Below are positions 3,202-18,506 of a stretch of 41,727 bases of DNA, piece by piece. How positions within the stretch are numbered: the stretch's first letter is position 1; the number at the start of each line of letters is the position of its first letter. The DNA comes from Nitrospiria bacterium (GTDB lineage Bacteria > Nitrospirota > UBA9217). The DNA is taken from assembly GCA_919901555.1 (NCBI GenBank), contig CAKKPG010000074.1:1-41727 (forward strand), given 5' to 3'. The notes beneath the pieces were generated by a model that worked only from the letters and a program-made list of their open reading frames with translations, made no database searches and was not told the DNA's origin. A program made the translations under genes and the position numbers.

Positions 3202-5844
3202 TTAACCTTCGTCCACAGCCCTCCGCACTTCCTGCACCTGATCGGCGCTTACGGTATCGGTGCTGGTGAAGATCATTTGATATTTCAGCCGGTCGGGATT
3301 CAGCTTTTCCCATTTCCTGAGCGCCATTGCTTTGCGGCCTGTATCACCGTCAACGGGATGCGCCCGGTCATACTCCCGCTTGATCTCGACGATCACGACC
3401 CTGCCGGAGCCGGGCTTGCCGCCCTGCTTCGGCTTCCTACGGATAACGAAGTCCGGCGTGTAGCGCCGCATCTTGCCCTTGTCGTCTTTGTATTCCACGT
3501 AGAAATCGGTCTTTGCGGGGTCGGTGATCGCGCCGGTGAAATAAACGTCTTCGACTTCGTCCGGCTTCATATTCAGTTGCACGAGCATCTGCTCAAAAAA
3601 GTTCTTTTCGGGGTTTGAGTCGAAATTATATGGCGCGTAGTGGAAACCGTAATCGCCTGGATTCTCCTTCTTCATTGCTTCCCACGAGAGCAGGAGCTTT
3701 TCCCGGTCCTTGGGGTAGACGATCTCGGCAGTGTAGAGCTCCGCGCCCGAGGCGTCCCGCTCCAGTTGGAAGCCGTCCGGCTTTACCAAGGCAAGGGCGA
3801 CATCGACCTTCTCTTCCTTTACCTCATAGAACCGGGTCTGCTCCTCAATCTGGCTGCCGAGGTCGCCAAGATGACCGGACGGAATGTCATCAGCTCCGTA
3901 GAGGCGCTTCAGTTCATCATAAACCTGCCAGAGATCGAGCCGGTAGAGACCGGAAAGCTCCACCGCCGCGGCATAGCAATCCATTCCGTCATGCTCCGTC
4001 TCGATGGTCACGGATTCGCTCACCTGCCGGAGCACGCTGTAGGTGGATTCCTGCTCACCCACGGTGTAGACCCGCTTCAGGAGCCGGTCAGAAGGGCCGT
4101 CCATCGGATGTTCGAGCCGGAGCGGCTTGACCTCGCCCTCTTTTTTCACAATGGTCCGCACGATCTGCGTCACGACGAGCGGCGGCAAATCCAGCTTCCT
4201 GAGAACGATCCGGGCGCGGCGGGTTTCCTGTCCCGCGTGGTTCAGGTCGGCAATTGTCTCTCCGTAGGTTTCCTGAAGCTGCCGGTCGAGAATGTTGTGG
4301 TTGTCCGAGGAGAGATAGACCCGGGCCTTGGCCGTATTGCCGGGGACCTGCCTCAGACACCGGGTGGCCGCCTGAAGGACGAAGTTGTTCGATGTCTTGA
4401 GCTTTCGCGCAAGCGCGCAGGCAAAGAGGCTCGGGCAGTTCCAGCCTTCGGTGCCCTTGTTCACGAGCAGGATCACTCTATGCGGCGCAGAGGGATCGTT
4501 GAGCCGATTGAACGCATCGATGTCAGCCTGCTTTGTCAGCTTTTCGTCGGAGGTGTTCACCAGACAGATTGCGGGACCCTGACCCACTTTGACGAGGGCT
4601 CGATCAATGGTCGGCTTCAGCTCTTTCAGATCATCGGTCTGCGGGAAATAGATCGCCAGCTTCGCCGGAGCCCCGTTCGGTAGGTGCACGTTGCCGTAGT
4701 CTTTGAAAAAATCTTCGATAACGTGTGCCACGTACTTTTTCGCGTTGCCGTCGAATTCATAGGCCTGGATGTTGCCGGCCAAGTCTTTGAGAATGCCGTC
4801 CTTGATCCCCTGGGAAAGCCCGTACCAGATGACCACGTCCTTGAGCGGCTGGCGCTGGAAATACGGAGTTCCGGTCGTGTTCACGACGCATATAACGTTC
4901 GTGCTCGCAGCGAGGTAATCAACGGTCTTTCGGACTTTCTTCAGTTCCGTGTCGAGCGACTGGCCGTAGGTATGGTGGGCCTCGTCCGAGAAGACCGCGA
5001 GGTGCGGCAGGCTTGCTATTGTCTGAAGCCGCAGATTTGCCACCTCCGCGCGCGCTTCATCCTCGCGTTCTGGATTGAACAACCTGCCGATATCGCTTTT
5101 CCTGATCGTTTCCTTTTGGATGCGTATCTTCTCCGTGTTGGTCACGACCACGTTAAACGATGAGCCGCGAATGACGGGAACGTTCTTTTCGCCGTCGCGT
5201 GTAAAGGTCAGCTTGACGGACGCGGCAAAGGCCTTATAGAGGCGTGGGGGAAGTATCTTTTCGTAATGGACCTCCGCCAGTTCGCGGAGTGATTCGATGA
5301 TCGTCTTGCCGGGAGCAAATACAAGGGCATTCTGGACAAAAGGCCCCTGGGGATACTCCAGGGCCAGGCCGAATTCGGTGGCGATGATGGCGCCGATCAG
5401 AATGGTCTTTCCGGCGCCCATTGCAAGGGCAAGGATGTAGCTGGAATAGTCGAGGGTCAGTGTTTCTCGAAGGGATTCGAGCTTGAAATCCTTTACAAAG
5501 GCGTCATCGGTCTTGATGCGTTTCCAGAGCGCGTCAAGTCCTTCATCCAGGACGTATGCTCTGATATCACTGTGATCAAGCCCGAGTGCCGTTAGAAGTT
5601 CCGATTGCTTCGGGTAGATTTTTCGGTAAAGGTCGAAAACGTGTGGGGTTTGTTCAATGAGGCGAAGGTACCAGTAGGTTTCAAGCGCCCGGAGCTGCGG
5701 ACGGCGTAAAAAACGCAGATTCCCGGTCTCCGTCTCTGTGGCCCACTCCAGCACTTCGGCTATTGCAGGATAATCATCGCTCGCATAGCCGTCGGTGCGC
5801 CATGCATCGACACGGACTGCGATATGACGGTGAAGGTGGTTCAT
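3202..5844 (-). CDS. res: Type III restriction endonuclease (Res) helicase-nuclease
   Basis: The 880-residue product should be the ATP-dependent translocating and cleaving subunit of the type III system, acting in complex with Mod. A helicase superfamily 2 core is visible: Walker A A-M-G-A-G-K-T at 141-147 and the D-E-A-H box at 287-290. A C-terminal PD-(D/E)xK nuclease is marked by P-D-F-V-I (797-801) and V-E-I-K (819-822). Length is normal for the family. An ATG with GGAGA five bases upstream is a reasonable start. The gene order res then mod, with an independent promoter for mod, would allow methylation to be established separately. It begins 109 bases downstream of icd, with no sign of a shared operon needed. 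Confidence 0.88.
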   Translation of the reverse strand: MNHLHRHIAVRVDAWRTDGYASDDYPAIAEVLEWATETETGNLRFLRRPQLRALETYWYLRLIEQTPHVFDLYRKIYPKQSELLTALGLDHSDIRAYVLDEGLDALWKRIKTDDAFVKDFKLESLRETLTLDYSSYILALAMGAGKTILIGAIIATEFGLALEYPQGPFVQNALVFAPGKTIIESLRELAEVHYEKILPPRLYKAFAASVKLTFTRDGEKNVPVIRGSSFNVVVTNTEKIRIQKETIRKSDIGRLFNPEREDEARAEVANLRLQTIASLPHLAVFSDEAHHTYGQSLDTELKKVRKTVDYLAASTNVICVVNTTGTPYFQRQPLKDVVIWYGLSQGIKDGILKDLAGNIQAYEFDGNAKKYVAHVIEDFFKDYGNVHLPNGAPAKLAIYFPQTDDLKELKPTIDRALVKVGQGPAICLVNTSDEKLTKQADIDAFNRLNDPSAPHRVILLVNKGTEGWNCPSLFACALARKLKTSNNFVLQAATRCLRQVPGNTAKARVYLSSDNHNILDRQLQETYGETIADLNHAGQETRRARIVLRKLDLPPLVVTQIVRTIVKKEGEVKPLRLEHPMDGPSDRLLKRVYTVGEQESTYSVLRQVSESVTIETEHDGMDCYAAAVELSGLYRLDLWQVYDELKRLYGADDIPSGHLGDLGSQIEEQTRFYEVKEEKVDVALALVKPDGFQLERDASGAELYTAEIVYPKDREKLLLSWEAMKKENPGDYGFHYAPYNFDSNPEKNFFEQMLVQLNMKPDEVEDVYFTGAITDPAKTDFYVEYKDDKGKMRRYTPDFVIRRKPKQGGKPGSGRVVIVEIKREYDRAHPVDGDTGRKAMALRKWEKLNPDRLKYQMIFTSTDTVSADQVQEVRRAVDEG

Positions 5845-7162: not shown

Positions 7163-7427
7163 CTACTCCCACTCGATCGTGCTCGGCGGCTTGGAGGAGA
7201 TGTCGAAAACCACGCGATTCACGCCCTTCACTTCGTTGATGATCCTGTTCGACATGGTCCCCAGAAGTTCGTAGGGGACCTTGGCCCAGTCCGCGGTCAT
7301 GCCGTCCTGGCTCGTGACGGCAGGGCTGGTGGTCGATGATCTCGTCCGGCATCCTGAGCTCGCGGCCGATGGCGCAAACTTCGTCTTTAAACAATTCCCT
7401 CAGCGGCTCCACGAGCTTCAGCTTCAT
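7163..7427 (-). pseudogene. guaA: guaA remnant with internal deletion
   Basis: This is the last third of a GMP synthase gene, broken by a 212-base deletion. Bases 7322-7427 encode [17 protein letters not shown] and differ from the intact gene at roughly 22 of 106 positions. Bases 7164-7321 are identical to 16936-17093 over 158 bp and encode the C-terminus up to T-I-E-W-E. The deletion joins the two parts out of frame. The stop codon (TAG, 7163-7165) sits at the icd ribosome binding site. No function is expected. Confidence 0.85.
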
Positions 7428-7438
7428 CCCCGGGCTGT

Positions 7439-8362
7439 TTATCTTTGCGCTTCTTCCGGGGTCAGCGTCTGAAACGAATCGTCATGTTTGAGGTTGAACT
7501 CGGTTACGTGCTGCAGGTGCTTCGGATCAAAACCTTCCTGCCTGATCTTCTGGATAAGCTCCCCGAATGAGGCTTGCGCCTTGACCATGGTTGATGTAGC
7601 TTTCCTCGGCAGCGGGTAGTCGGCAACAATCTTCGCCCCCTTATTGCCGTTGTTCTTTCGTCCATCGGAATAGAACTGCGACAGGGCAACAATCCTCGTG
7701 CCCAGATAACAGGCCTCCTCAAGATCGTGAGTAACGAAAAAGATCGTCATCTTCGTTTTTTCCCATATTTCAAGAATGAATACCTGCATGCTTTCCCTGG
7801 TTCCGGGGTCGAGCGCGCCGAAAGGCTCGTCCATCAGAAGAATAGACGGGTTCATGATCACCGCCTGTGCGATAGCGACCCTCTGCTGCATGCCGCCGGA
7901 AAGTTCGTGGGGATATTTTTTATAATGTTCCCTGAGCTGAACCTTCTCAAGAAAGTGCATCGCTTCCTCTTCAAACGTCTTATGCTTGCGGAACCGTTCT
8001 ACAATTCCGGCGCACAGTTTTTTCCCGAGCAGGACATTCTCCAATACGGTAAGGTGGGGGAACAGCGAATATTTCTGGTACACGATCCCGCGATCCCTGC
8101 CTGCGGATTCCGCGGGGCATCCGTCAATGAACAGCCCCCCTTTTGTCGGCCGCTCCTGCCCCAGGATAAGACGCAGGAGCGTCGACTTCCCGCAGCCGCT
8201 CGGCCCTACCACCGTGCAAAACTCTCCGCGTGCAACGGAGAGGTCCACATTGTCGAGGACAACCTTGTTCCCGTATATTTTATAGACATCCTGAATGTGC
8301 AGGATGTTCTTCTCTTCAAGACCGCCGGCCTTGACACACATGCTGTTATTGCTTCCGTTCAA
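7439..8362 (-). CDS. ABC transporter ATPase, nitrate/sulfonate/taurine type
   Basis: This 307-residue protein is the energising subunit of the importer encoded by this operon. It has Walker [10 protein letters not shown] at 53-61, the signature L-S-G-G-M-Q-Q-R at 154-161, and Walker B I-L-L-M-D-E-P at 174-180. The probable start is a TTG at 8362, placed eight bases after a GGAGG site that lies beside the permease stop codon; an ATG seven codons further in is the alternative. The C-terminal 60 residues beyond the ATPase core are specific to this subgroup. It is the last gene of the operon and ends next to the guaA remnant. The substrate is not known. Confidence 0.88.
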
Positions 8363-8375
8363 GTCTCCCGCCTCC

Positions 8376-9212
8376 TCACCCGCCGGATTTCACGTACCAC
8401 GGGTATTTCCTTTCCGCGAATTTCCTGAGGAGAAGATCCATGGAAAATCCGAGGAACGTGATCCAGAAAACAAGCGGTATGATGAGGTCCATCGAGAGGT
8501 ACCGTCTCACGAGGAATATCCGGTAACCAAGTCCGTCCGTTGAGGCGATGGCCTCCGATGCGATAAGAAAAAGCCAGGCAGGCCCGAGACTCAGCCTGAC
8601 CGTGTTGATGAGTCGCGGCATAACCTGAGGAAGGATTATCTGGTATGCGGTCTGGGTTCCTGAAGCCCCAAGCGTCAAGGCTTTGATCGTCTGCTCCCGG
8701 GGGAAGCTTTCCACCGTGAGCGTTATGTCCCGCGCTATGAGGAATACCGTACCGAGGAAAATCAGCATTACCTTTCCGACCTCTCCTACCCCGAATACGA
8801 TAAACAGTATCGGCAGAATCGCAAGAGGCGGAATGATGGAAAGAAATTTCACAAAGGAGTTGCCGAGTGCTTTGAAACCGGGGAAAAGCCCGATGTTCAG
8901 CCCCGCCAGCAGGCCGAAGATTGCCGCACTTCCAACCCCGATAACGAGACGGCGCAAACTGGAGAGGGTATCCTGCACCATGAGCTGCTCGCCGTTTGTC
9001 CTGTCGCCCGTCCATGCATATTGTTTTATTGCCTGAACCATCTTGCTTACGGGCGGAAGCAGCTTATCGTCGGGATTGTCCGCAAGGCGCATATGCGAAG
9101 CAAAAAGATATGCGGCAGTCAGAATAATGAAGGGCAGCGCGAGCAGGAACCAGTTTAACCCCATGGTCGGCTCGGCATGAAGCCCGATGAACCTCGGTAT
9201 TCTTCTCGACAT
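8376..9212 (-). CDS. ABC transporter permease, nitrate/sulfonate/taurine type
   Basis: The 278-residue integral membrane protein has several hydrophobic helices. The first is near residues 18-40 and the last is at the C-terminus. An EAA-like loop (A-S-E-A-I-A-S-T-D-G-L-G-Y) near residue 220 is where permeases dock to the ATPase. It should form the channel of the importer with the ATPase encoded 13 bases downstream. The ATG is preceded by AAAGG. The pairing with the substrate-binding gene upstream is conserved in this transporter class. Confidence 0.88.
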   Translation of the reverse strand: MSRRIPRFIGLHAEPTMGLNWFLLALPFIILTAAYLFASHMRLADNPDDKLLPPVSKMVQAIKQYAWTGDRTNGEQLMVQDTLSSLRRLVIGVGSAAIFGLLAGLNIGLFPGFKALGNSFVKFLSIIPPLAILPILFIVFGVGEVGKVMLIFLGTVFLIARDITLTVESFPREQTIKALTLGASGTQTAYQIILPQVMPRLINTVRLSLGPAWLFLIASEAIASTDGLGYRIFLVRRYLSMDLIIPLVFWITFLGFSMDLLLRKFAERKYPWYVKSGG

Positions 9213-9301
9213 CGTTAGACCTTTCTGAGCGGTCGAGCGGCGATGCTCTGCCGGGTGCTCAAAAGCGCGCCTTCGGTTTTTGTATCTTCTTCAAGACTGC
9301 T

Positions 9302-10357
9302 TCAGATTTTTCCTTCAGCAGCCATCCGCATGTACTTGTCCGTAAAGCGCAGCTTTACATTCCGCTTGCTTCCCATGACGGTTGCATCAGGAAATTCGAT
9401 GCCGATAAAGTCCTTCGATGAAGCATTCTGTCCGAAGAGACCGCGCTCGAAGGTGAACGTGCGGACATATTCCATCGTCTTTTTCAGATTTTCGCTCTTT
9501 GCGAAATCGGCCGCATCTTTTGCAGTATAGTACATGGCCGTGGTCTTGAGCTGAGCGACGAAGGACTGTTCCGTGTTGCCCGCGATCTTTGCCATATACG
9601 CGATCGACTCATCCGCGGTTTTGCCCTTCCCGGACATTACCCGCATCGTCTCGTACCATGCGCCAATAAGGGCTTTCTTGAGAGAATCGGGCGCGTTGGT
9701 CCGTACAACCATAAGGTCCAGGATCTCGCCCGGGATCTTCGAGGAATCGAAAATGATCTTGGCGCCCGCCTCCCGGATCGTCATCAGTGGGGGGTTCCAG
9801 GTGACGGCAATAGCCTTCGGGTTAGAGGCGAACAGGCCTGCGATCTCCGCGTCGCTCACATTCACGAGCTTCATCCCGATATCTTTTTCTGTTTTGCCGG
9901 CCTGATCAATGGCCCTGGCCAGAAGATAATGCGACACGGAATACTGCACCAGCATCACTTCTTTTCCGGTAAATTCAGTGACTGACCCTTCGCCCCTGGT
10001 GCCGATGCCGTCATTGCCGTTCGAGTAATCCCCGATGATGAGCGCGGTCGAATCGATGCCGCCGACGGAGGGAATGGTGAGCGCATCCATGTTCGTCATG
10101 ACACAGCCGTCATATTGTCCAGCGGTATACTGGTTGATCGATTCGACATAATCATTGACGAGGGTAAGACTTATGTCGATCCCGTACTTGTTCGCCCATT
10201 TCTTGAGAATACCCGCGTGGTTTGCATATTCCCAGGGCTCCCACCCGGTATAATGGGACCAGGCGATCTTGAACTTTTCTTTTGCAAATGCCTCATTCAT
10301 CGGAATCAACGAGATAGTAAGAACCAGCGCGAGAAGCATTATTGGAAATCTCTTCAT
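9302..10357 (-). CDS. ABC substrate-binding protein, urea-carboxylase-region type
   Basis: This 351-residue periplasmic protein begins with a signal peptide (about residues 1-22, ending N-E-A-F-A). The mature part starts with K-F-K-I-A-W-S-H-Y-T-G-W-E-P-W and contains D-Y-V-E-S-I-N-Q-Y-T-A-G-Q-Y-D-G followed by T-N-M-D-A-L. This is the pattern of the family named for its position near urea carboxylase genes. No urea carboxylase gene is present here, so the ligand cannot be inferred. The ATG at 10357 was chosen because AGGAGG stands eight bases upstream and the signal peptide starts there. It lies between telA and the permease gene. Confidence 0.85.
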   Translation of the reverse strand: MKRFPIMLLALVLTISLIPMNEAFAKEKFKIAWSHYTGWEPWEYANHAGILKKWANKYGIDISLTLVNDYVESINQYTAGQYDGCVMTNMDALTIPSVGGIDSTALIIGDYSNGNDGIGTRGEGSVTEFTGKEVMLVQYSVSHYLLARAIDQAGKTEKDIGMKLVNVSDAEIAGLFASNPKAIAVTWNPPLMTIREAGAKIIFDSSKIPGEILDLMVVRTNAPDSLKKALIGAWYETMRVMSGKGKTADESIAYMAKIAGNTEQSFVAQLKTTAMYYTAKDAADFAKSENLKKTMEYVRTFTFERGLFGQNASSKDFIGIEFPDATVMGSKRNVKLRFTDKYMRMAAEGKI

Positions 10358-10415
10358 GTATTGTTCCTCCTTTTTATAGATCTTTGCCCGATTATCTGAA
10401 GGCATAGGATCGCGA

Positions 10416-11633
10416 TCACATAACCTCGAGCCGGTATGCGGGCCGTGCAGCATTCCCCTTTTCCATTTTTACGATTTCCTTTTCCGATTCCCCGGTCAGA
10501 CGGTCCATGACCAGGATCTGCTCCGCCATCTTTGGAAGCGCAGTGCGGCGGAAGGCGGTAATGTCGTCAAAGGCGGCCTGGATATCGGAAAAGGCCGCTT
10601 TGAGGGCTTCGATGTCGAGCATGGCGCTCGAGGCCTGCTTCTGGATGGCAGCGCCCTGGGTTTTAAGGCGCGCTGCGGTGCCGGATATGATGTCGGAGGT
10701 CGTCTTGGTGACGGACTCGACCCTGTCGAGCACGATCTTCTGGTTCGCAAGCGCCATCGCAACCGCAACCGCAATCTCAAGCGCGCTGATCGTTACGTCA
10801 AGCACCCGGTTGACACCGCGGGTCAGCTCCTTGTTGTTTCTGATGATCAGCTCGGAAGCAAGGACCCCCTGCTGGTTGACCGCGAGCTGCTGCTGCAGGT
10901 CCAGGGCGCGTTGTCGCAGCGGAAAAATGATCTCCTCCTGGATGAATTTTGTCCGTTCCTCGTTCGGCGAAGTCTTCTCGAGCTCGTCCGCGATTTTCTT
11001 GTCGATGAGTATTGCGAGCTTCACCGTCTTCTCGAGCTTGAGCGTGGTCTCGCGCATCCTCTTCTGATCATCGGCCAGCGTGATATTGTCCCTCTTGAGC
11101 TCTTCCCTCCCGATTTCAAGAGCGCGGATGATGGCACCGATGACGGTCTGGGCTGATTCGTACTGAGTGAAATAGCGTTTAACCGGGGTTCCAATGAAGG
11201 GCAGCCTGCCGATATTGCGGCTGATCCAGCCCGGTTCAAAATCGAACTTACCCGGATCGAGTTCCTCTACCTTTATCTTGAGGTTGACCAGATCCTTTGC
11301 CAGCGGACCGCCGTCCTCCCCGGCCTTTGCAAGCTTCTTCACGGGCTCCTTCAAAAGGCGGCTCTCGCCGGCCGCCCTCCGCTGCACTTCCCGTCCCATG
11401 TACTCGACAGCTTCTGACTTATCTTTCCGGGCCGTCAAGTCCTTTGGATCCATTGAAAAAAGCATTTTAACGAACCCCTCGGCCTGCTTTGCCAGTGCTG
11501 GATCCTCCTCGGGCCTGGCCTCGAGCTTTTTTGGTTCTGCCAGCATCAATTCCTTCCCGACTGTGGAAACATCGGCGACCACAAGCGGGACAAAAGCCTT
11601 TTTTTCAGCAACTGCAACTCTGGTCTGTGCCAT
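10416..11633 (-). CDS. telA: TelA/KlaA family protein (toxic anion resistance family)
   Basis: The 405-residue protein is mostly alpha-helical. It contains the family core: R-A-L-D-L-Q-Q-Q-L-A-V-N-Q-Q-G, then R-N-N-K-E-L-T-R-G-V and a V-A-V-A-M-A-L-A-N-Q-K-I-V-L-D segment. TelA proteins were linked to tellurite resistance on plasmids, but their biochemical role is unknown; comparative studies place them in Ter/Tel stress-response neighbourhoods with VWA proteins. Here telA sits between a membrane coiled-coil gene and an ABC importer, with a VWA gene two further upstream. No signal peptide is visible, so it is probably cytoplasmic. AAGGAG lies six bases before the ATG. Confidence 0.87.
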   Translation of the reverse strand: MAQTRVAVAEKKAFVPLVVADVSTVGKELMLAEPKKLEARPEEDPALAKQAEGFVKMLFSMDPKDLTARKDKSEAVEYMGREVQRRAAGESRLLKEPVKKLAKAGEDGGPLAKDLVNLKIKVEELDPGKFDFEPGWISRNIGRLPFIGTPVKRYFTQYESAQTVIGAIIRALEIGREELKRDNITLADDQKRMRETTLKLEKTVKLAILIDKKIADELEKTSPNEERTKFIQEEIIFPLRQRALDLQQQLAVNQQGVLASELIIRNNKELTRGVNRVLDVTISALEIAVAVAMALANQKIVLDRVESVTKTTSDIISGTAARLKTQGAAIQKQASSAMLDIEALKAAFSDIQAAFDDITAFRRTALPKMAEQILVMDRLTGESEKEIVKMEKGNAARPAYRLEVM

Positions 11634-11669
11634 CGATATTCTCCTTTTTCATGTAGTATGACAATCCCG

Positions 11670-12530
11670 CTACATCTTGTTTGAAGCGTACTGATGTGCG
11701 CGCGAGGCAAGCTCTTCAAGTTGTTTTCGCGCTGTTTCCATGTCAACCGTCGCCCGACTCCTGGTGATCGAAACAAGCGATACCGTTGCCTTCTCGATCT
11801 CGGTCATGGCCTGCTCGTTCTCGGTCAGGAGCACGTTGACTTCCTGCAGCTTGTCGTCGCGGAGCTTGCGGCGCTCGTGAAGCGTCTTCCCCTCCTCCTC
11901 ATCGGCCGCGGTAAGCGTTTTGAGCTTTCTCAGCGCCTGCAGCCTGTCTTCGATATAAGAAACATCGATCGTGCTTATGCTTTCCAGAATGATCGACATC
12001 TTGTCGAGGTTGTCGAGCACGGAGAGGTAGACCTGCTCAGCAGACCCGAGGTATCTGCTGAAGGTCATCTCCTGGGGGTTCAGTTTCTTTCCGAGGACAT
12101 CGCGAAAATTGACGATCTTTTCCTGGATATCCTGAAACTGGTTGATCCCCTGTGACACGTAATCCCCGGCGCCTGGAAGCCGTTTCCACGTTTCAAGGTC
12201 CTTAACGAGTCTGAGGGTCACCCGCTGCTTATACTCCTCCATCTCCTGCTGGATGTTTTCGATATATTTCTGTGCAAGCGTATCGCCGCGCATGAAAAAG
12301 TTCACAATCCAGCTGCCGACGCCTATTGCCGTTCCTCCGATGGCCGCTATCACTGACACTGGTGACGTGCCGAGAACCCCAAGTGCAAGCCAACCGAGCA
12401 GGCCTACTCCTGAACAATAAAGGCTGAGCGGGTGCTGAAGGGTTGTTTTCAGGACGGCTTTTGTAATGGCTGTCTTTGAAAAGTCTTCAATGCTCGGAGG
12501 GTTGGAAAGCCCCGCCTTTTTCCTTGTCAC
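11670..12530 (-). CDS. Membrane-anchored coiled-coil protein encoded before telA
   Basis: The 286-residue product has two closely spaced hydrophobic segments (about residues 36-58 and 60-85). A long, charged, predominantly helical region follows to the C-terminus, with heptad-like spacing suggesting coiled coils. The start is a GTG at 12530, with GGGAGG nine bases upstream. I do not recognise the family. Its place directly before telA resembles that of XpaC-type membrane proteins next to TelA in Firmicutes, but the sequence does not clearly match them. It may hold TelA at the inner membrane. It begins 32 bases after the preceding gene's stop. Confidence 0.6.
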   Translation of the reverse strand: MTRKKAGLSNPPSIEDFSKTAITKAVLKTTLQHPLSLYCSGVGLLGWLALGVLGTSPVSVIAAIGGTAIGVGSWIVNFFMRGDTLAQKYIENIQQEMEEYKQRVTLRLVKDLETWKRLPGAGDYVSQGINQFQDIQEKIVNFRDVLGKKLNPQEMTFSRYLGSAEQVYLSVLDNLDKMSIILESISTIDVSYIEDRLQALRKLKTLTAADEEEGKTLHERRKLRDDKLQEVNVLLTENEQAMTEIEKATVSLVSITRSRATVDMETARKQLEELASRAHQYASNKM

Positions 12531-12562
12531 TCGAATCGCCTCCCTTCGGGCAGGTCCCCCGG

Positions 12563-14116
12563 CTACATCGTTTCTGAAACAAGATACATCTCGACACGCG
12601 GCAGCCTGTACTGATAGGCCCGCTCGCTCTCATCCGGCTGCTGTGAGAGAGGGCGATCCGAGCCCATTCCCATCGTACGAAGCCGATTTGCATCAACATG
12701 AAATGTCGCCTCTATATATTTTTTTACCGCATCCGCTCTCTGCTGCGACAGCCTTTTGTTCTCTTTTTTGTCGCCGCGGAGCCCGGTGTGCCCTTTGATC
12801 ACGACCCGGTAGTTCGGATAATGCTTCAGGGCCTCGATTGCGCTGTCGATCTCTTTTTTGTCCTCAACGCCCAAACCCGCTGTCCCGCTTTGGAACGTGA
12901 TCGGACGTATCCTGAGTGTTCCGATTTCCCTCAAGGCGTCCCATTCCGCGTCGCTCAGGTTCCGGAACTTCTTCTCAAGAGATCCGGTTATCGGCTCCGA
13001 AGCCTTTTCGACACCGAACTGGCTGTTCACCATGCCTGCGTGCAGCTCCTGAATGAATTTTGAATTCATGATACGGTACGGGTCTCCGTCGGGAAGCGGG
13101 TTTTTCGAAAAATCGCGACTGTCCTTCAAAATCTGGATAGTCGACTGGATCGCATCGGACAGATCCTCGAGGCTGGTCCCGCCCTGGGTCGGCACACCGA
13201 ACCATTTCCTGGCATTGCTCTCGAGATTGATCCATTGGACCCCTTTGAGCATCGACTCGGCCTGTTCGGACGTGACATTGTAACGGCCCGCCACTTCCTT
13301 TTTCAGCTGCTCGGGATTTTCGGTGTAGTGCTTCAGCACTTTGAAATATTCGGAAAGCAACACCTGCACGATCTCGGGGTGATCCGCGCTGAAATCCCGG
13401 TTGACCAGCAGTATATCAACGATCAGCTTCTCTGTATTTTCCGTGCTGATCAGCTTGTTGTAGCCTTTTGAAACAGCCTTTGTTATATCCGGTTCCCAGA
13501 GCACGGCAACATCGACCGAGTCCGTCAGAAGCTTTTTCAGCGCTTCTCCTGACCCCTTTGTCTCGACCCTGTTCTCCTTTGCGATAAGAAAGGCGGCGTC
13601 GAAATGCGAAGCGATCGACTTTGCAAGATGCTCGCTCGGCGATCCGGGGGTAAATGCGATCCGGACGACGTTCTTTTTCTTGAGATCGTCTATGCTGCGT
13701 ATCGTTCTTGCCGAGACAAGTCCGTCGCCTCCTTTTGACTCGTCGATCACGGCAACGATCACTGCGGGATATTTCTTCTCGCTCCCGTTCAGAATATAGG
13801 AGTCAACGGTCGCAACGGCGAAGAACGACTGCTGTCTTTGAAGCCTCTCCATCCTGCCGAGATAATCTGCGTTGTCGTCATTACATTTGAGTCCGTATCC
13901 CCTAACTTTGAGCCTCCGCTTCATTTCCTGGGAACAGAGCGGATAGTAACCGATCCAGCTGTCCATGTCGATTGTTATCGTCGTCTTTACCTCTCCGGCG
14001 TCGGACGTGCTTTTTTGCTTCCTGTCTTCAAAGAGAGGGGTCAGCACCTTGATGCCGAAGATCGCGGCAGTTCCGAGCGCGATCAGGAGGATGAATCCGA
14101 TGATCTTTTTGTTCAT
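12563..14116 (-). CDS. Substrate-binding protein fused to an OmpA-like domain (second copy)
   Basis: This 517-residue protein has an N-terminal hydrophobic anchor (about 5-28). A type II periplasmic binding fold of the NMT1/SsuA class follows (about 45-340; note D-V-A-V-L-W-E-P-D). An OmpA-like domain ends the protein (about 395-515, with R-L-S-Q-Q-R-A-D-A-V). This architecture is annotated in databases as phosphate ABC transporter substrate-binding/OmpA family. The usual G-H-T-D of the peptidoglycan-binding OmpA motif reads G-H-T-G here, although the conserved Arg is present, so cell-wall binding may be weakened. The uncleaved-looking anchor suggests that it spans the inner membrane and faces the periplasm. 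It lies between the VWA gene and the membrane coiled-coil gene. Confidence 0.82.
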   Translation of the reverse strand: MNKKIIGFILLIALGTAAIFGIKVLTPLFEDRKQKSTSDAGEVKTTITIDMDSWIGYYPLCSQEMKRRLKVRGYGLKCNDDNADYLGRMERLQRQQSFFAVATVDSYILNGSEKKYPAVIVAVIDESKGGDGLVSARTIRSIDDLKKKNVVRIAFTPGSPSEHLAKSIASHFDAAFLIAKENRVETKGSGEALKKLLTDSVDVAVLWEPDITKAVSKGYNKLISTENTEKLIVDILLVNRDFSADHPEIVQVLLSEYFKVLKHYTENPEQLKKEVAGRYNVTSEQAESMLKGVQWINLESNARKWFGVPTQGGTSLEDLSDAIQSTIQILKDSRDFSKNPLPDGDPYRIMNSKFIQELHAGMVNSQFGVEKASEPITGSLEKKFRNLSDAEWDALREIGTLRIRPITFQSGTAGLGVEDKKEIDSAIEALKHYPNYRVVIKGHTGLRGDKKENKRLSQQRADAVKKYIEATFHVDANRLRTMGMGSDRPLSQQPDESERAYQYRLPRVEMYLVSETM

Positions 14117-14189
14117 CTGCGGCTACCTGGGTCCCCTTCAAAAGCTGGCAAGGCCGAAAAGCGATTTGTACTTCGTTTGTTCCGCCGGG

Positions 14190-14900
14190 CTAAAATTTCT
14201 CGGATTCAGCGACCACGGCTTTAAGACCTTTGATAAGCTCCTGAGGGTCTTTCGCAGTCCGGTAACTGGTGCGCCCCGGCTGGTTCAGCGGATGATTCGG
14301 ATCTATGCAAAAACCGATTGTATGAATCATGATCGGCGTGTTATTAAGGATATAGTTTACCGCATCATTCGGCTCCTGGCCGGGGTTCGCCATTCCATCG
14401 GTAACGATGACGAGATGATACTCGCCGTACCCGAGTTGCGCTTTCGCCTGTTTCTCTATTGCCGAGAGGGCCGTTACGACGGCATCATGAAGAGGCGTGC
14501 CATCGCCCGGCTGCACAGCATTGACCTCGGCAATTATCCTGTCACGGTTCTTCGTGCCCAGCGGTGCGATTTCCCGGACACCGTCCTTGTCGAAAACAAG
14601 AAGCCCCAAATTCGCCCGCGCAGGGACAACATCCACGAATTCGACAAACGCCCTCTTCGAGACTGCCGACTTCGTGGACCCCTCGGCGCATTCCCGGTCG
14701 CCCATGCTTCCCGAGCTGTCGAGAATGACGTAATAGTTCTTTGCAAGCAGGTCCTTTGCGACTTCCACCTTCTCGCCTTCCTTGATTTCCGGCGGCCAGG
14801 TGCTTGAAATGATCAACGGCAGCTTTGAGGACTGCTTCGTTTCGCACCCGAACGGAAGAAGGAATGCAAGGAACATCAGCGACAACACGAATCTGTTCAT
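14190..14900 (-). CDS. VWA-domain lipoprotein
   Basis: The 236-residue product has a signal sequence ending L-P-F-G-C, a lipobox-like site with Cys19. A von Willebrand factor A domain follows. Its metal-ion-dependent adhesion site is intact: D61-x-S63-x-S65 in D-S-S-G-S-M-G-D, a Thr in G-D-G-T-P-L-H, and a D-G-M-A-N-P segment. Such domains bind protein partners through a metal ion. A periplasmic, membrane-attached adhesion role among the binding proteins of this operon is likely. GGGAGGGGGGG lies just before the ATG. It follows the first substrate-binding/OmpA gene by 14 bases. VWA proteins are also known partners in Ter/Tel gene neighbourhoods. Confidence 0.85.
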   Translation of the reverse strand: MNRFVLSLMFLAFLLPFGCETKQSSKLPLIISSTWPPEIKEGEKVEVAKDLLAKNYYVILDSSGSMGDRECAEGSTKSAVSKRAFVEFVDVVPARANLGLLVFDKDGVREIAPLGTKNRDRIIAEVNAVQPGDGTPLHDAVVTALSAIEKQAKAQLGYGEYHLVIVTDGMANPGQEPNDAVNYILNNTPIMIHTIGFCIDPNHPLNQPGRTSYRTAKDPQELIKGLKAVVAESEKF

Positions 14901-14914
14901 GTGACCCCCCCTCC

Positions 14915-16615
14915 CTAGAGTGCTTCAAATTGAACGGCTTCGCCTTCCACCTGCAGGATCTTGAAAACCACCCTCATGTTGCTCAGCCACTCTTTTTCAT
15001 TCTTGGGAGCACAGGGGTCGTCGCCGCACATTCCGCCCCTCGGGCTCATGATGCCGTGGCCGAGGACGGCGAACTGGCTCTCGTCAAGGATAATTCCCTT
15101 CGATTTCGCATGGTCGATGATGTTCTGCCGCACCTGGTTCGCCCGTGAGAGGCTCAGGTTCTTGGCGGATTGTTTGATCTGCCTCAGGACCAGTTCCGCG
15201 GTTGCAGCCTTTTTCTTTTTGAGATACTCCAACGGGTCTGAGTGTCCTTCCACGGTTATTACGGCCCCGCCGTACGTCGTGGCGTACTCGATCACTTTCT
15301 GAAATTCATCCTTGTACGCCTCTACAGGGAAAGTGTTCTGGTTCGGCTTGAAATAAATTTCGAAGCTGAAAAGCACGCCTTCCTCGCTCTGCTGCCTTTT
15401 CACGACCGCTTTTGCAACCTTCCCGGTGTCGAACCTGGGCGCTTCTACGTCGCCTGTATCCGCAAGTCCGGGCTTGAATCTTTTGTAATCCCATTTTGCA
15501 TGGTCCAGGCTTCCTCGGCCGCTGATCACACCCAGAGCAATAAGGCCTTTCTGGATATCCGCGGTTGTCCTCTCGAAGTTCCGCGGGTTGTTCTTGTCCC
15601 CAAAAAACTTTACGTTCCCTTTCCATCCCGCGTACCTGCAGTCGGCGTATAACCCCTCTGTATCTGCCACGGCATCCGCGCTGTCAAGAAGGATCTGCGC
15701 GGAGGCCTTTATCGCCTCGGTGTATCCGCTGCCCTTGTTTTTGAAGAGCTTCGCCGTAGCTTCCTCGGCAACCAGGAGGCCATGAACAAGATTTGCCACC
15801 TCTTCTTTATGGCTTGCGAGGTAGTCCGCCCGGACGGCATAGACGTCCGCAATTACATGGTCGGCTGTCTTCGTGGAAAGAAGTATTTTTGCGCCTTTTA
15901 CGGAATTCTCGGCCCCGGTCCCGGTTTTCCCGCCGGAGGTCAGGGCAAGCGCATCCGGCGTAATCACCATAGCGGCATCCACATCCGGTTCACGGAACGC
16001 GGTGACCGGCGTTTCTTCTGTCCCGGTCAGGTCTTTTGTCCACCGGATCTTGATGTCCTTGAACGTAAGACCCGCGCTAACAAGGATGCGATCAAGGTAT
16101 TCGAGATGGGGGCCGTAGGCCTGCAGGCTGATCGTTTTCCCCCTGAGCTGCTCCGGCCTCTTGATATGGCTTTTTACAACAAGTGTGTCGCCGCCGGCCG
16201 AGTATGTATGCTGATAGATTACGACGAGCTTTGTCCTCGGGTCCCTGTTCGCTGCATCAGAAGCCATGTTGATCATGCCGAGCGTGCCGCGCAGGTACGG
16301 CGTTTCGCATGAAAGATACTTTTCCACTTGCCGCGGGAATACATCCTCACGGAACAATTTAAAGTGCAGGCCTTTCTCAGCAAAGATGCTTCCTGCCTTC
16401 GTGTCAACCTGGTCGCCATTGGCATAGATCGTGGCTATGTCGCCGCCCCACGTAATAATCGGCAGATTTACGGTATGCCGGTCTTCACAACCTCGCACCG
16501 GCGATTTCACTATTTCGTTCAGTGCTTTCAGGGCTACCTGCTTTGGGGCCGCGGATACAGTGCAGGCAAGCAGCATCACCGTCAGGAACGAAATTGCGCC
16601 CACAATCCTTTTCAT
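14915..16615 (-). CDS. Substrate-binding protein fused to an OmpA-like domain (first gene of the operon)
   Basis: The 566-residue protein starts with a signal sequence containing L-L-A-C at 15-18 (a possible lipobox) and V-S-A-A at 20-23 (a possible ordinary cleavage site). An NMT1-type periplasmic binding domain spans about 45-370. A C-terminal OmpA-like domain spans about 425-560, with V-E-G-H-S-D and L-S-L-S-R-A-N. Here both the Asp and the Arg used by OmpA proteins to bind diaminopimelate are kept, so the protein should hold the peptidoglycan. Four Cys near the C-terminal half and within the OmpA domain (C-G-D-D-P-C) may form disulfides. AGGAGG stands six bases before the ATG. It opens an eight-gene operon reaching 7439. 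Confidence 0.85.
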   Translation of the reverse strand: MKRIVGAISFLTVMLLACTVSAAPKQVALKALNEIVKSPVRGCEDRHTVNLPIITWGGDIATIYANGDQVDTKAGSIFAEKGLHFKLFREDVFPRQVEKYLSCETPYLRGTLGMINMASDAANRDPRTKLVVIYQHTYSAGGDTLVVKSHIKRPEQLRGKTISLQAYGPHLEYLDRILVSAGLTFKDIKIRWTKDLTGTEETPVTAFREPDVDAAMVITPDALALTSGGKTGTGAENSVKGAKILLSTKTADHVIADVYAVRADYLASHKEEVANLVHGLLVAEEATAKLFKNKGSGYTEAIKASAQILLDSADAVADTEGLYADCRYAGWKGNVKFFGDKNNPRNFERTTADIQKGLIALGVISGRGSLDHAKWDYKRFKPGLADTGDVEAPRFDTGKVAKAVVKRQQSEEGVLFSFEIYFKPNQNTFPVEAYKDEFQKVIEYATTYGGAVITVEGHSDPLEYLKKKKAATAELVLRQIKQSAKNLSLSRANQVRQNIIDHAKSKGIILDESQFAVLGHGIMSPRGGMCGDDPCAPKNEKEWLSNMRVVFKILQVEGEAVQFEAL

Positions 16616-16934
16616 TGCTTCCTCCTCATTTTATGATGGTATTGCCAAAAAGTTCATTGAAAAACGCCAAGGAAGGGTCGGAGAACTTTAAATAATCAAA
16701 AGCAGCTGTGCCTCCCTTCCCACTACTATTCTCAACTGGGATATTGATAGCAAAAACAGCGCAAGTACGCATAATTTTATGACACGTGAACGTATTTCAA
16801 GCGTCTTCTCGCGTTTCTTATGTTTACTATATATGATTCAGTTCTGGGAAGCAGGGTAAGTGATAGAAACCTTCCCATTGGCATTGAGCGTACTATAAAA
16901 AACGGGAAATGGCAAGGATATACGATGTATTTTT
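16616..16934. other. 319-bp intergenic region upstream of the TelA/ABC operon
   Basis: No gene is visible between guaA and the first operon gene. Near 16774-16800 on the minus strand TTGAAA and TAAAAT stand 15 bases apart, a possible but tightly spaced promoter with a CACGTG palindrome between the boxes. No hairpin followed by a T-run was seen for guaA. Confidence 0.4.
16774..16800 (-). promoter_or_regulatory. Weak candidate promoter for the TelA/ABC operon
   Basis: TTGAAA (16800-16795) and TAAAAT (16779-16774) each match five of six consensus bases, but the 15-base spacer is short. The leader would be about 150 bases. Confidence 0.3.
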
Positions 16935-18506
16935 TTACTCCCACTCGATCGTGCTCGGCGGCTTGGAGGAGATGTCGAAAACCACGCGATTCACGCCCTT
17001 CACTTCGTTGATGATCCTGTTCGACATGGTCCCCAGAAGTTCGTAGGGGACCTTGGCCCAGTCCGCGGTCATGCCGTCCTGGCTCGTGACGGCGCGGATG
17101 GCGACCACGTTCTCGTAGGTCCGCTCGTCGCCCATGACGCCCACGGTCTTGATCGGCAGCAGCACGGCAAAGGACTGCCAGATCTCTTTATACAGACCCG
17201 CCTTCTTGATTTCCTCGATCACGATCGCATCCGCCTCGCGCAATATCCTGAGCCTCGGCCCGGTCACCTCGCCCAGGATGCGGATGGCGAGCCCCGGGCC
17301 GGGGAAGGGCTGGCGGTCGATGATGTCGCCGGGCATCTTCATCTCACGGCCGATAGCGCGAACCTCGTCCTTGAATAACTCACGAAGCGGTTCCACCAAT
17401 TTCAGCTTCATCTTCTCGGGCAGGCCGCCCACGTTATGGTGGGACTTGATGATCGCCGACGGGCCCTTGAAGGAGACGCTCTCGATCACGTCGGGATAGA
17501 GCGTGCCCTGGACCAGGAACTCGGCCCCGCCGGCAGCATGGGCCTCCCGCTCGAACACCTCGATAAAGGTGTTGCCGATGATCTTCCGCTTCTTCTCCGG
17601 GTCCTCCACGCCTTTGAGCCGCTCCAGGAACAGGGACGAAGCATCAACGTACTTGAGGTTCAGCCCCATGTCCTTGAACGTGTGCTGCACCTTCTCGGCC
17701 TCGTCCTTGCGGAGCACGCCGTTGTTCACGAAGATGCTGATGAGCTGCTTGCCTATGGCCTTGTTCACGAGCACCGCGGCCACGGAGGAGTCCACGCCGC
17801 CGGACAGGCCGCAAACCGCCTGCTTATCACCGACGGCCTTCCGGATCTCGCCCACGGAGTAGTCGACAAAGGAAGCCATGTTCCACGTCGGCTTGCACCC
17901 GCAGATGGTATAGACGAAGTTCCTGAGTATCTGCGTGCCCTGGGGCGTGTGCGCCACCTCGGGGTGGAACTGGACGCCGTAGAACCTCCGCTTTTCGTCG
18001 GCCATGGCTGCTGTCGGCGAATTGTCGGTGTGCGCTATGGCATGGAACCCTTCGGGCATCTTCTCGATGCGGTCGCCGTGGCTCATCCATACGACACTTC
18101 GGAGTTCGGAGTTCGGAGTTTGGAGTTTTGAATCAATACCGAAGAAGAGGCCATCATTCTTGTGGATGATCAGCTCGGCCCTGCCGTACTCCCGTTTTTG
18201 CGATTTCGCGACCAACCCGCCCAGAATGTGCGTCAGGAGCTGCATGCCGTAGCAGATGCCCAGGACCGGGATGCCGAGATCAAGGTGGGTTTTATCGATG
18301 AGCGGCGCTCCGCTGTCATACACGCTGGAGGGGCCGCCGGAGAGGATCAGCCCCTTGGGCCGGAAGGCCTTGACCTTCTCAAGCCCCGCGTTGAACGGGA
18401 ATATCTCGCAATAGACCTTGGCCTCGCGCACCCTGCGGGCGATGAGCTGGGTGTACTGGGACCCGAAGTCGAGGATCAGGATTCGTTCACTGTGGATATC
18501 GGACAT
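16935..18506 (-). CDS. guaA: GMP synthase (glutamine-hydrolysing)
   Basis: This enzyme converts XMP to GMP with ATP and glutamine in purine synthesis. The 523-residue product has a class I glutaminase domain (L-S-G-G-P-S near 55-60; catalytic Cys in G-I-C-Y-G-M-Q; H-P-E-V). A PP-loop ATP pyrophosphatase domain (L-S-G-G-V-D-S-S) and the dimerisation domain ending T-I-E-W-E follow. The ATG at 18506 is chosen because AGGAG lies six bases upstream; a TTG two codons earlier is less likely. The glutaminase domain carries an odd insert, [11 protein letters not shown], coded by a tandem heptamer repeat at 18098-18125. Its last 158 bases are duplicated next to icd. Confidence 0.95.
18098..18125. repeat. 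Tandem TTCGGAG heptamers inside guaA
   Basis: Three TTCGGAG units and one TTTGGAG unit stand head to tail. Read on the minus strand they give part of the peptide [11 protein letters not shown], absent from ordinary GuaA proteins, between the glutaminase L-F-F-G-I-D and V-W-M-S-H-G-D segments. Such heptamer runs are more usual between genes. Confidence 0.8.

Follow-up and report, generated by a model that had tools for sequence, protein, structure and literature searches.

A conserved eight-gene operon combining TelA and a VWA protein with OmpA-fused substrate-binding proteins and a guanidine-type importer

The window analysed here, a 41,727-nucleotide stretch from a Nitrospiria bacterium (contig CAKKPG010000074.1), contains an operon of eight genes in which TelA is encoded together with a VWA protein, a membrane coiled-coil protein (CC), three substrate-binding proteins (SBPs) and the permease and ATPase of an ATP-binding cassette (ABC) importer. 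Two of the SBPs are fused to OmpA-like domains (SBP-OmpA1 and SBP-OmpA2) and the third, SBP3, is free. This eight-gene set is a conserved, horizontally spread system, and the cluster very probably encodes one machine of the cell envelope. As for its function, sequence comparison points, with a probability of about 0.42, to a trans-envelope sensor of envelope state or of a solute that would control a membrane scaffold, import being an input rather than a means of nutrition.

Conservation of the eight-gene set

A scan for SBP-OmpA1 in one genome per species retrieved 65 loci in other genomes. Slot orders in these loci were assigned with home-made profiles, using the code 1 for SBP-OmpA1, V for the VWA protein, 2 for SBP-OmpA2, C for CC, T for TelA, p for a replacement of TelA, 3 for SBP3, P for the permease and A for the ATPase. 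Complete sets occur at 34 loci besides the window, and a few of these loci are closely related to one another. They show the orders 1V2CT3PA (14 loci), 1V2Cp3PA (8), A1V2CT3P (4), 1V2C3PAT (4) and PA1V2CT3 (4), and the remaining loci are mostly truncated by contig ends. The order of slots 1-V-2-C is invariant wherever they are present. The hosts include Beta- and Gammaproteobacteria, Thermodesulfobacteriota, Nitrospirota, Bdellovibrionota, Verrucomicrobiota, Acidobacteriota, KSB1, Poribacteria, Bacteroidota and bins of the Candidate Phyla Radiation. Furthermore, tblastn against plasmids retrieved all eight families in the Vibrio megaplasmids pAM7, pIFO15640 and pSEA1, in the same order except that the ATPase has moved to the front. 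Co-occurrence in other genomes, a check suggested in the initial annotation, is therefore borne out by 34 other complete loci, with the same order or permutations of it, across phyla, plasmids and phages. A module was also retrieved from an uncultured archaeon bin (L069); it clusters with a Bacteroidota copy (L071) with moderate support, and the archaeal label may be a binning error.

Pairwise distances correlate for all 28 family pairs (r 0.64-0.94), and for each pair none of 200 permutations gave a value as high. Since all 28 pairs correlate, the genes of the operon travel and evolve together. Their association is more than chance, as the same families recur in 34 other complete loci and co-vary.

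Linkage is not absolute, and in some loci the importer is not adjacent to the core. We considered, as an improbable alternative, that co-transfer keeps side by side what are at least two independent units, the 1-V-2-C(-T) genes on the one hand and the importer on the other. Such units would be in keeping with the importer moving as a block (PA or 3PA at the front) and lying elsewhere, or being absent, in several genomes. However, importer and core distance matrices correlate with r 0.64-0.92, and a TIGR03427 protein is still encoded elsewhere in four of the six genomes with an unlinked importer. At L045, where the importer is unlinked, the TIGR03427 match is only weak.

An exchangeable TelA slot

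The slot between CC and SBP3 is exchangeable: it holds either TelA or an unrelated hairpin protein of about 276 amino acids (aa) without Pfam identity. TelA was found in 36 loci and the replacement in 10, never together (Fisher test 2e-10, not corrected for kinship). In four carriers of the replacement, L063 (a complete chromosome), L056, L050 and L053, TelA is absent from the whole genome, and the SBP-OmpA1 tree requires at least two switches between the two proteins. The hairpin type of slot occurs in Acidobacteriota, Poribacteria, KSB1, Aminicenantes and two huge phage genomes. A distant relationship between TelA and the replacement was rejected, as they share no sequence similarity.

In the fold that AlphaFold predicts for the replacement, a helix at the N-terminus is joined by a long hairpin and by short helices at the C-terminus, and Vipp1, CdvB and Asgard ESCRT-IIIB recur among its top 25 Foldseek matches, all of them weak. 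The modelled hairpin protein thus appears ESCRT-III-like in layout only, because no fold match lies under E 0.001 and no link to PspA is seen by sequence. The TelA model is all-helical and of low confidence (pLDDT 66), with no significant fold match. Pfam PspA or Snf7 matched none of CC, TelA and the hairpin protein, and no PspA was found in the window genome.

The TelA family match could suggest a resistance operon against metals or toxic anions such as tellurite, after the name of the protein. This seems very improbable. The TelA name derives from old plasmid phenotypes, the slot can be taken by an unrelated protein, and the transporter is of importer type and belongs to the guanidine-importer lineage. 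Moreover, the link to Ter neighbourhoods drawn in the initial annotation found no support, as TerB, TerC, TerD and TerZ are all missing from the eight operon genes, the part of the window that was scanned for Ter.

Wall anchors, VWA protein and an AAA+ partner

In OmpA-like domains, an Asp and an Arg hold the diaminopimelate of peptidoglycan. This pair is present in SBP-OmpA1 as Asp460 and Arg491, and each residue is kept in 72 of 73 relatives; the OmpA domain itself scores only 20.5 bits in Pfam, under the 27.2 cut-off. In the OmpA domain of SBP-OmpA2, the Arg (Arg460) is kept in 63 of 63 copies and the usual Asp in just four. The two proteins also begin differently: SBP-OmpA1 has a signal peptide, while SBP-OmpA2 has in nearly all copies an uncleaved membrane anchor (hydrophobic residues 1-29 in the window copy), giving a MotB-like topology.

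The residues DxSxS, T and D form the metal site of VWA proteins, the metal ion-dependent adhesion site (MIDAS). The site is complete in the VWA protein of the window (D61, S63, S65, T135 and D168) and kept in 70-73 of 73 copies. The protein had been described as a VWA lipoprotein. The VWA domain and the export are supported; nevertheless, the lipobox (LLPFGC) is non-canonical, 42 of 73 relatives have a Cys in this column, and a membrane anchor takes its place at the start of several of the rest. CC matches no known family. None of 25 CC members had a Pfam match, and an assignment to XpaC or Snf7 was rejected for that reason. No solved structure worth using was found by sequence for SBP3, TelA or SBP-OmpA1.

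A ninth gene, encoding an AAA+ ATPase, adjoins the module in 13 loci, often divergently and just upstream of SBP-OmpA1 (for example, L019 8258-9763). Its product is closest to the proteasome ATPase ARC/Mpa, with a TIGR03689 score of 254 bits, under the cut-off. This partner is absent from the window and from the window genome, where only weak AAA matches were retrieved.

The importer and its probable ligand

All three SBP domains are mutually homologous in profile comparisons. SBP3 matches the NCBI profile TIGR03427, 'putative urea ABC transporter SBP', with 458 bits (cut-off 334). Together with the permease and the ATPase, it is 43-51% identical to the importer of guanidine/urea carboxylase operons, three of which were compared. 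Carboxylase operons of this kind import guanidine through an ABC transporter, according to reviews (PMC12186494). In the SBP, 75 columns reach a conservation of 88% or more among module copies, and 55 of these are identical throughout the three guanidine-type proteins. Because of this kinship and of the shared conserved residues, a guanidinium-like ligand is likely and is our best guess. The C-terminal extension of the ATPase ends in FNLxHxDSF in most module copies inspected, unlike the ATPases of guanidine operons, and is a candidate contact to the additional proteins.

This kinship could mean that the operon serves high-affinity uptake of a guanidinium-like compound, the wall-anchored SBPs concentrating the ligand and TelA and the VWA protein merely protecting from a toxic cation. 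We consider this unlikely, even with an importer so close to riboswitch-controlled guanidine importers. Next to the loci, no catabolic gene recurs, be it for a carboxylase, a deiminase or a guanidinase. Control of the module by a guanidine riboswitch was rejected: no guanidine riboswitch was detected in seven module loci or the window, and Guanidine-I was not found in the window genome either, while two of the three carboxylase operons compared, which served as the positive control, carry Guanidine-I and Guanidine-II riboswitches. Uptake would also leave the MIDAS protein, the exchange of TelA for the hairpin protein and the AAA+ partner unexplained, and would bring little gain to phages.

A possible trans-envelope sensor

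In the sensor proposed here, SBP-OmpA1 would be held by the wall and SBP-OmpA2 by the inner membrane, and together with SBP3 the two would dock on the permease. The VWA protein may be a metal-dependent (MIDAS) adaptor between the two fusion proteins. Occupancy by a guanidinium-like small cation, or a lost contact between wall and membrane, would trigger a change in the ATPase cycle or in the contacts of the SBP-OmpA proteins. The membrane coiled-coil protein could relay this signal to TelA or the hairpin protein, which would assemble on the inner face of the membrane and stabilise or reshape it. In loci that have the ARC-like AAA+ ATPase, this enzyme might dismantle the TelA or hairpin assembly. 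The initial annotation had likewise envisaged wall-anchored solute binding that reports to TelA through the VWA protein and CC. This putative signalling route agrees with the MIDAS, the peptidoglycan-binding residues and the anchored SBP-OmpA2.

Support for the sensor comes from the conserved set and its co-variation, the mutual exclusivity of TelA and hairpin protein, the weak fold matches to the ESCRT-III family and the AAA+ partner. It also comes from the retained MIDAS and Asp/Arg residues, the lack of catabolic genes and riboswitch, the effect of telA on nisin susceptibility in Listeria and the operons with PspA/Snf7, the last two being described below. Several results weigh against it. 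No Foldseek match of the replacement reached E 0.001, its model is of low confidence (pLDDT 68), and its identification as a PspA homologue by sequence was rejected as no match was found. As TelA and the hairpin protein share no sequence similarity, slot exchange is the single argument that they have equal functions. The importer is not always needed, since the genome of L021, which has slots 1-V-2-C-T, contains no TIGR03427 SBP at all. Finally, the conserved set includes no regulator gene.

More broadly, these loci may represent a general prokaryotic trans-envelope machine in which interchangeable membrane scaffolds, either TelA or an ESCRT-III-like hairpin protein, are governed by wall-anchored guanidine-type SBPs and a MIDAS adaptor and taken apart by an ARC-type AAA+ ATPase, and which huge phages would have co-opted for managing the host envelope. 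We put forward this generalisation tentatively, as a somewhat doubtful one. If it is true, TelA would acquire a definite role and place. For decades this protein has gone under the name of toxic-anion resistance protein without a known mechanism; its fixed partners, its exchangeable slot and the predicted ligand now open its function to testing. The occurrence of the module in many phyla, megaplasmids and unrelated huge phages suggests a basic task in the envelope, valuable enough for a phage with a 500-kb genome to carry the genes. A second role, outside nitrogen metabolism, is also suggested for guanidine-type importers.

Layout and origin of the operon in the window

The eight open reading frames (ORFs) lie on the minus strand at 16615-7439 (Table 1), separated in gene order by 14, 73, 32, 36, 58, 89 and 13 bases, so that the short gaps reported in the initial annotation stand. 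The gene content given there, three SBPs of which two are OmpA-fused, plus VWA protein, coiled-coil protein, TelA and importer, is likewise confirmed by ORFs and family matches. A plausible ribosome-binding site precedes nearly every gene. The ORF of SBP3 reaches 10453 (383 aa as listed), and its likely start is at 10357, where the signal peptide begins and which a ribosome-binding site supports (AAAGGAGG). Internal terminators would have split the operon into separate units; no terminator-like site was found on the minus strand between its genes. Consensus promoters within operon genes were counted neither for nor against a single unit.

Table 1. Operon genes and adjoining features in the window.
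Feature	Position	Strand	Description
Upstream region	16616-16934	-	319 bases; probable promoter TTGAAA-18-AATTAT at 16800-16771, weak, consensus match only
SBP-OmpA1 (slot 1)	14915-16615	-	566 aa; NMT1-like SBP domain and C-terminal OmpA-like domain; secreted
VWA protein (slot V)	14190-14900	-	236 aa; exported; VWA 42 bits
SBP-OmpA2 (slot 2)	12563-14116	-	517 aa; OmpA 69 bits; SsuA_fam 58 bits
CC (slot C)	11670-12530	-	286 aa; membrane protein; hydrophobic segments at about 35-78, helical C-terminal part
TelA (slot T)	10416-11633	-	405 aa; PF05816 214 bits (cut-off 30)
SBP3 (slot 3)	9302-10357	-	free periplasmic binding protein; TIGR03427 guanidine/urea-carboxylase type
ABC permease (slot P)	8376-9212	-	278 aa; NitT/TauT type; BPD_transp_1 59 bits
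ABC ATPase (slot A)	7439-8362	-	307 aa; ABC_tran 116 bits; C-terminal extension
Mosaic guaA 3' fragment	7164-7428	-	downstream end of the operon; identity to resident guaA

The operon is probably foreign to the window genome, because its GC content at third codon positions is low, a guaA mosaic lies at its end and SBP-OmpA1 is present in only one of 148 genomes of the phylum. The GC content at third positions is 0.66-0.71 in the eight genes, compared with 0.86 in guaA and 0.87 in icd, which flank them. None of 13 genomes of the same family contains SBP-OmpA1, and the window genome contains it once, as it does TelA. Within the mosaic, 166 bases (7164-7329) are 98% identical to the 3' end of the resident guaA (16936-17101), whereas the identity of 110 bases (7319-7428) to a segment inside guaA (17303-17412) is only 79%. 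In the simplest reading, recombination would have inserted the operon recently beside guaA, leaving the mosaic as a scar, and one end of the insertion would retain guaA sequence of the donor. In the tree, the window copy lies near copies of Nitrospirota, Bdellovibrionota and Betaproteobacteria, a placement that is not strongly supported.

Elsewhere in the window, an 880-aa protein with a type III restriction res-subunit (ResIII) domain is encoded at 3202-5844, adjoining icd. Direct repeats with lengths of 116-128 bases and an identity of about 72% were also detected, in two pairs (27039-27154/28679-28794 and 39951-40077/40107-40227).

Huge phages and mobile elements

The full set with the hairpin protein is encoded in LR756511 (595 kb) and in the IMG/VR contig 3300017388_000001 (436 kb). 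A full TelA set is found in IMG/VR contig 3300037484_000435 (545 kb), with proteins 52% identical to those of the window; this contig may be bacterial DNA with a prophage. A compact module was retrieved from Bacillus phage G (gp243-gp250; L077 7941-15023), Lak-type phages (Lak-A2, L078 9364-15727), L085 and L086. Besides a NitT/TauT-type permease and an ATPase, it comprises one or two SBP-OmpA proteins together with coiled-coil proteins that are either soluble or in the membrane. Terminase genes confirm the phage nature of LR756511, phage G and Lak-A2. The TelA of Lak-A2 (L081, record 365522-366493) lies about 85 kb from its SBP-OmpA/ABC module. Assignment of phage G gp247 and of the Lak membrane coiled-coil proteins to the CC or replacement family found no sequence support, and they could not be aligned.

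These sets raise the possibility, in our view rather improbable, of a mobile-element system by which phages or megaplasmids protect the host envelope during infection or exclude competitors, the bacterial copies being domesticated or defensive. The complete sets in LR756511 and two huge viral contigs, the compact sets in phage G and Lak phages, the Vibrio megaplasmids and the insertion footprint in the window are consistent with it. However, most loci are chromosomal or on contigs of metagenome-assembled genomes and span many phyla, and the 545-kb viral contig may be bacterial. A known anti-phage defence system was rejected, as the PADLOC matches went no further than generic similarity to ATPases and to OmpA/MotB, and no defence genes recur next to the loci.

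Two further records were noted. In the plasmid p380 of Vibrio coralliilyticus (L080 11866-14911), the sole genes of the module type are an SBP-OmpA1-like one and a VWA gene of greater length, with an adjoining integrase, perhaps a minimal or decayed form. Matches in Acinetobacter 'phage MD-2021a' (L079, CAKLQF020000001.1) belong to an unrelated carboxylase locus; these records encode urea carboxylase, Vgr and metabolic genes and look bacterial or plasmid-borne rather than phage.

Comparison with known systems

The importer resembles that of TIGR03427 guanidine operons in the SBP above the curated cut-off, the 43-51% identity of three genes and the same conserved SBP residues. Unlike guanidine carboxylase operons, the module lacks riboswitch, carboxylase and UAAP genes, and it adds the SBP-OmpA proteins, the VWA protein, CC, TelA and the C-terminal tail of the ATPase. 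As in MotB, ZorB and Pal-type anchors, a membrane anchor or secretion signal is combined with an OmpA-like domain. Unlike these, the fusion proteins have a solute-binding domain that separates the anchor from the OmpA domain, and SBP-OmpA2 is devoid of the diaminopimelate-binding Asp.

TelA adjoins a membrane coiled-coil protein, as in the XpaC-TelA (YaaN/YceH) envelope stress pairs of Bacillota, although CC matches no known family. We know of no SBP, VWA protein or importer associated with XpaC pairs. A telA (lmo1967) mutant of Listeria is reported to show a 4-fold higher susceptibility to nisin and a 2-fold higher one to tellurite (PMC12791056, citing Collins 2010).

No literature naming the full eight-gene set was found. 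The closest account is one sentence on operons with PspA/Snf7, AAA+, an ABC transporter and an SBP-OmpA protein (PBPB/OmpA), exemplified by OGG56892.1, which are interpreted there as coupling membrane remodelling to the transport of solutes (Ravi et al. 2024, PMC11237479). The view in the initial annotation that no described system connects such parts is thus almost right: related operons have been noted, in an account that mentions neither TelA nor a VWA protein and in which there is just one SBP-OmpA protein. The window operon differs from them in having no AAA+ partner and no detectable PspA or Snf7. It shares with them the ABC ATPase and permease, solute- and peptidoglycan-binding SBP-OmpA proteins and a membrane coiled-coil protein, and 13 relatives of the window locus share the AAA+ ATPase as well. 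We therefore regard the set as a TelA- and VWA-bearing variant of this barely described PspA/Snf7-AAA-ABC-SBP/OmpA kind of operon.

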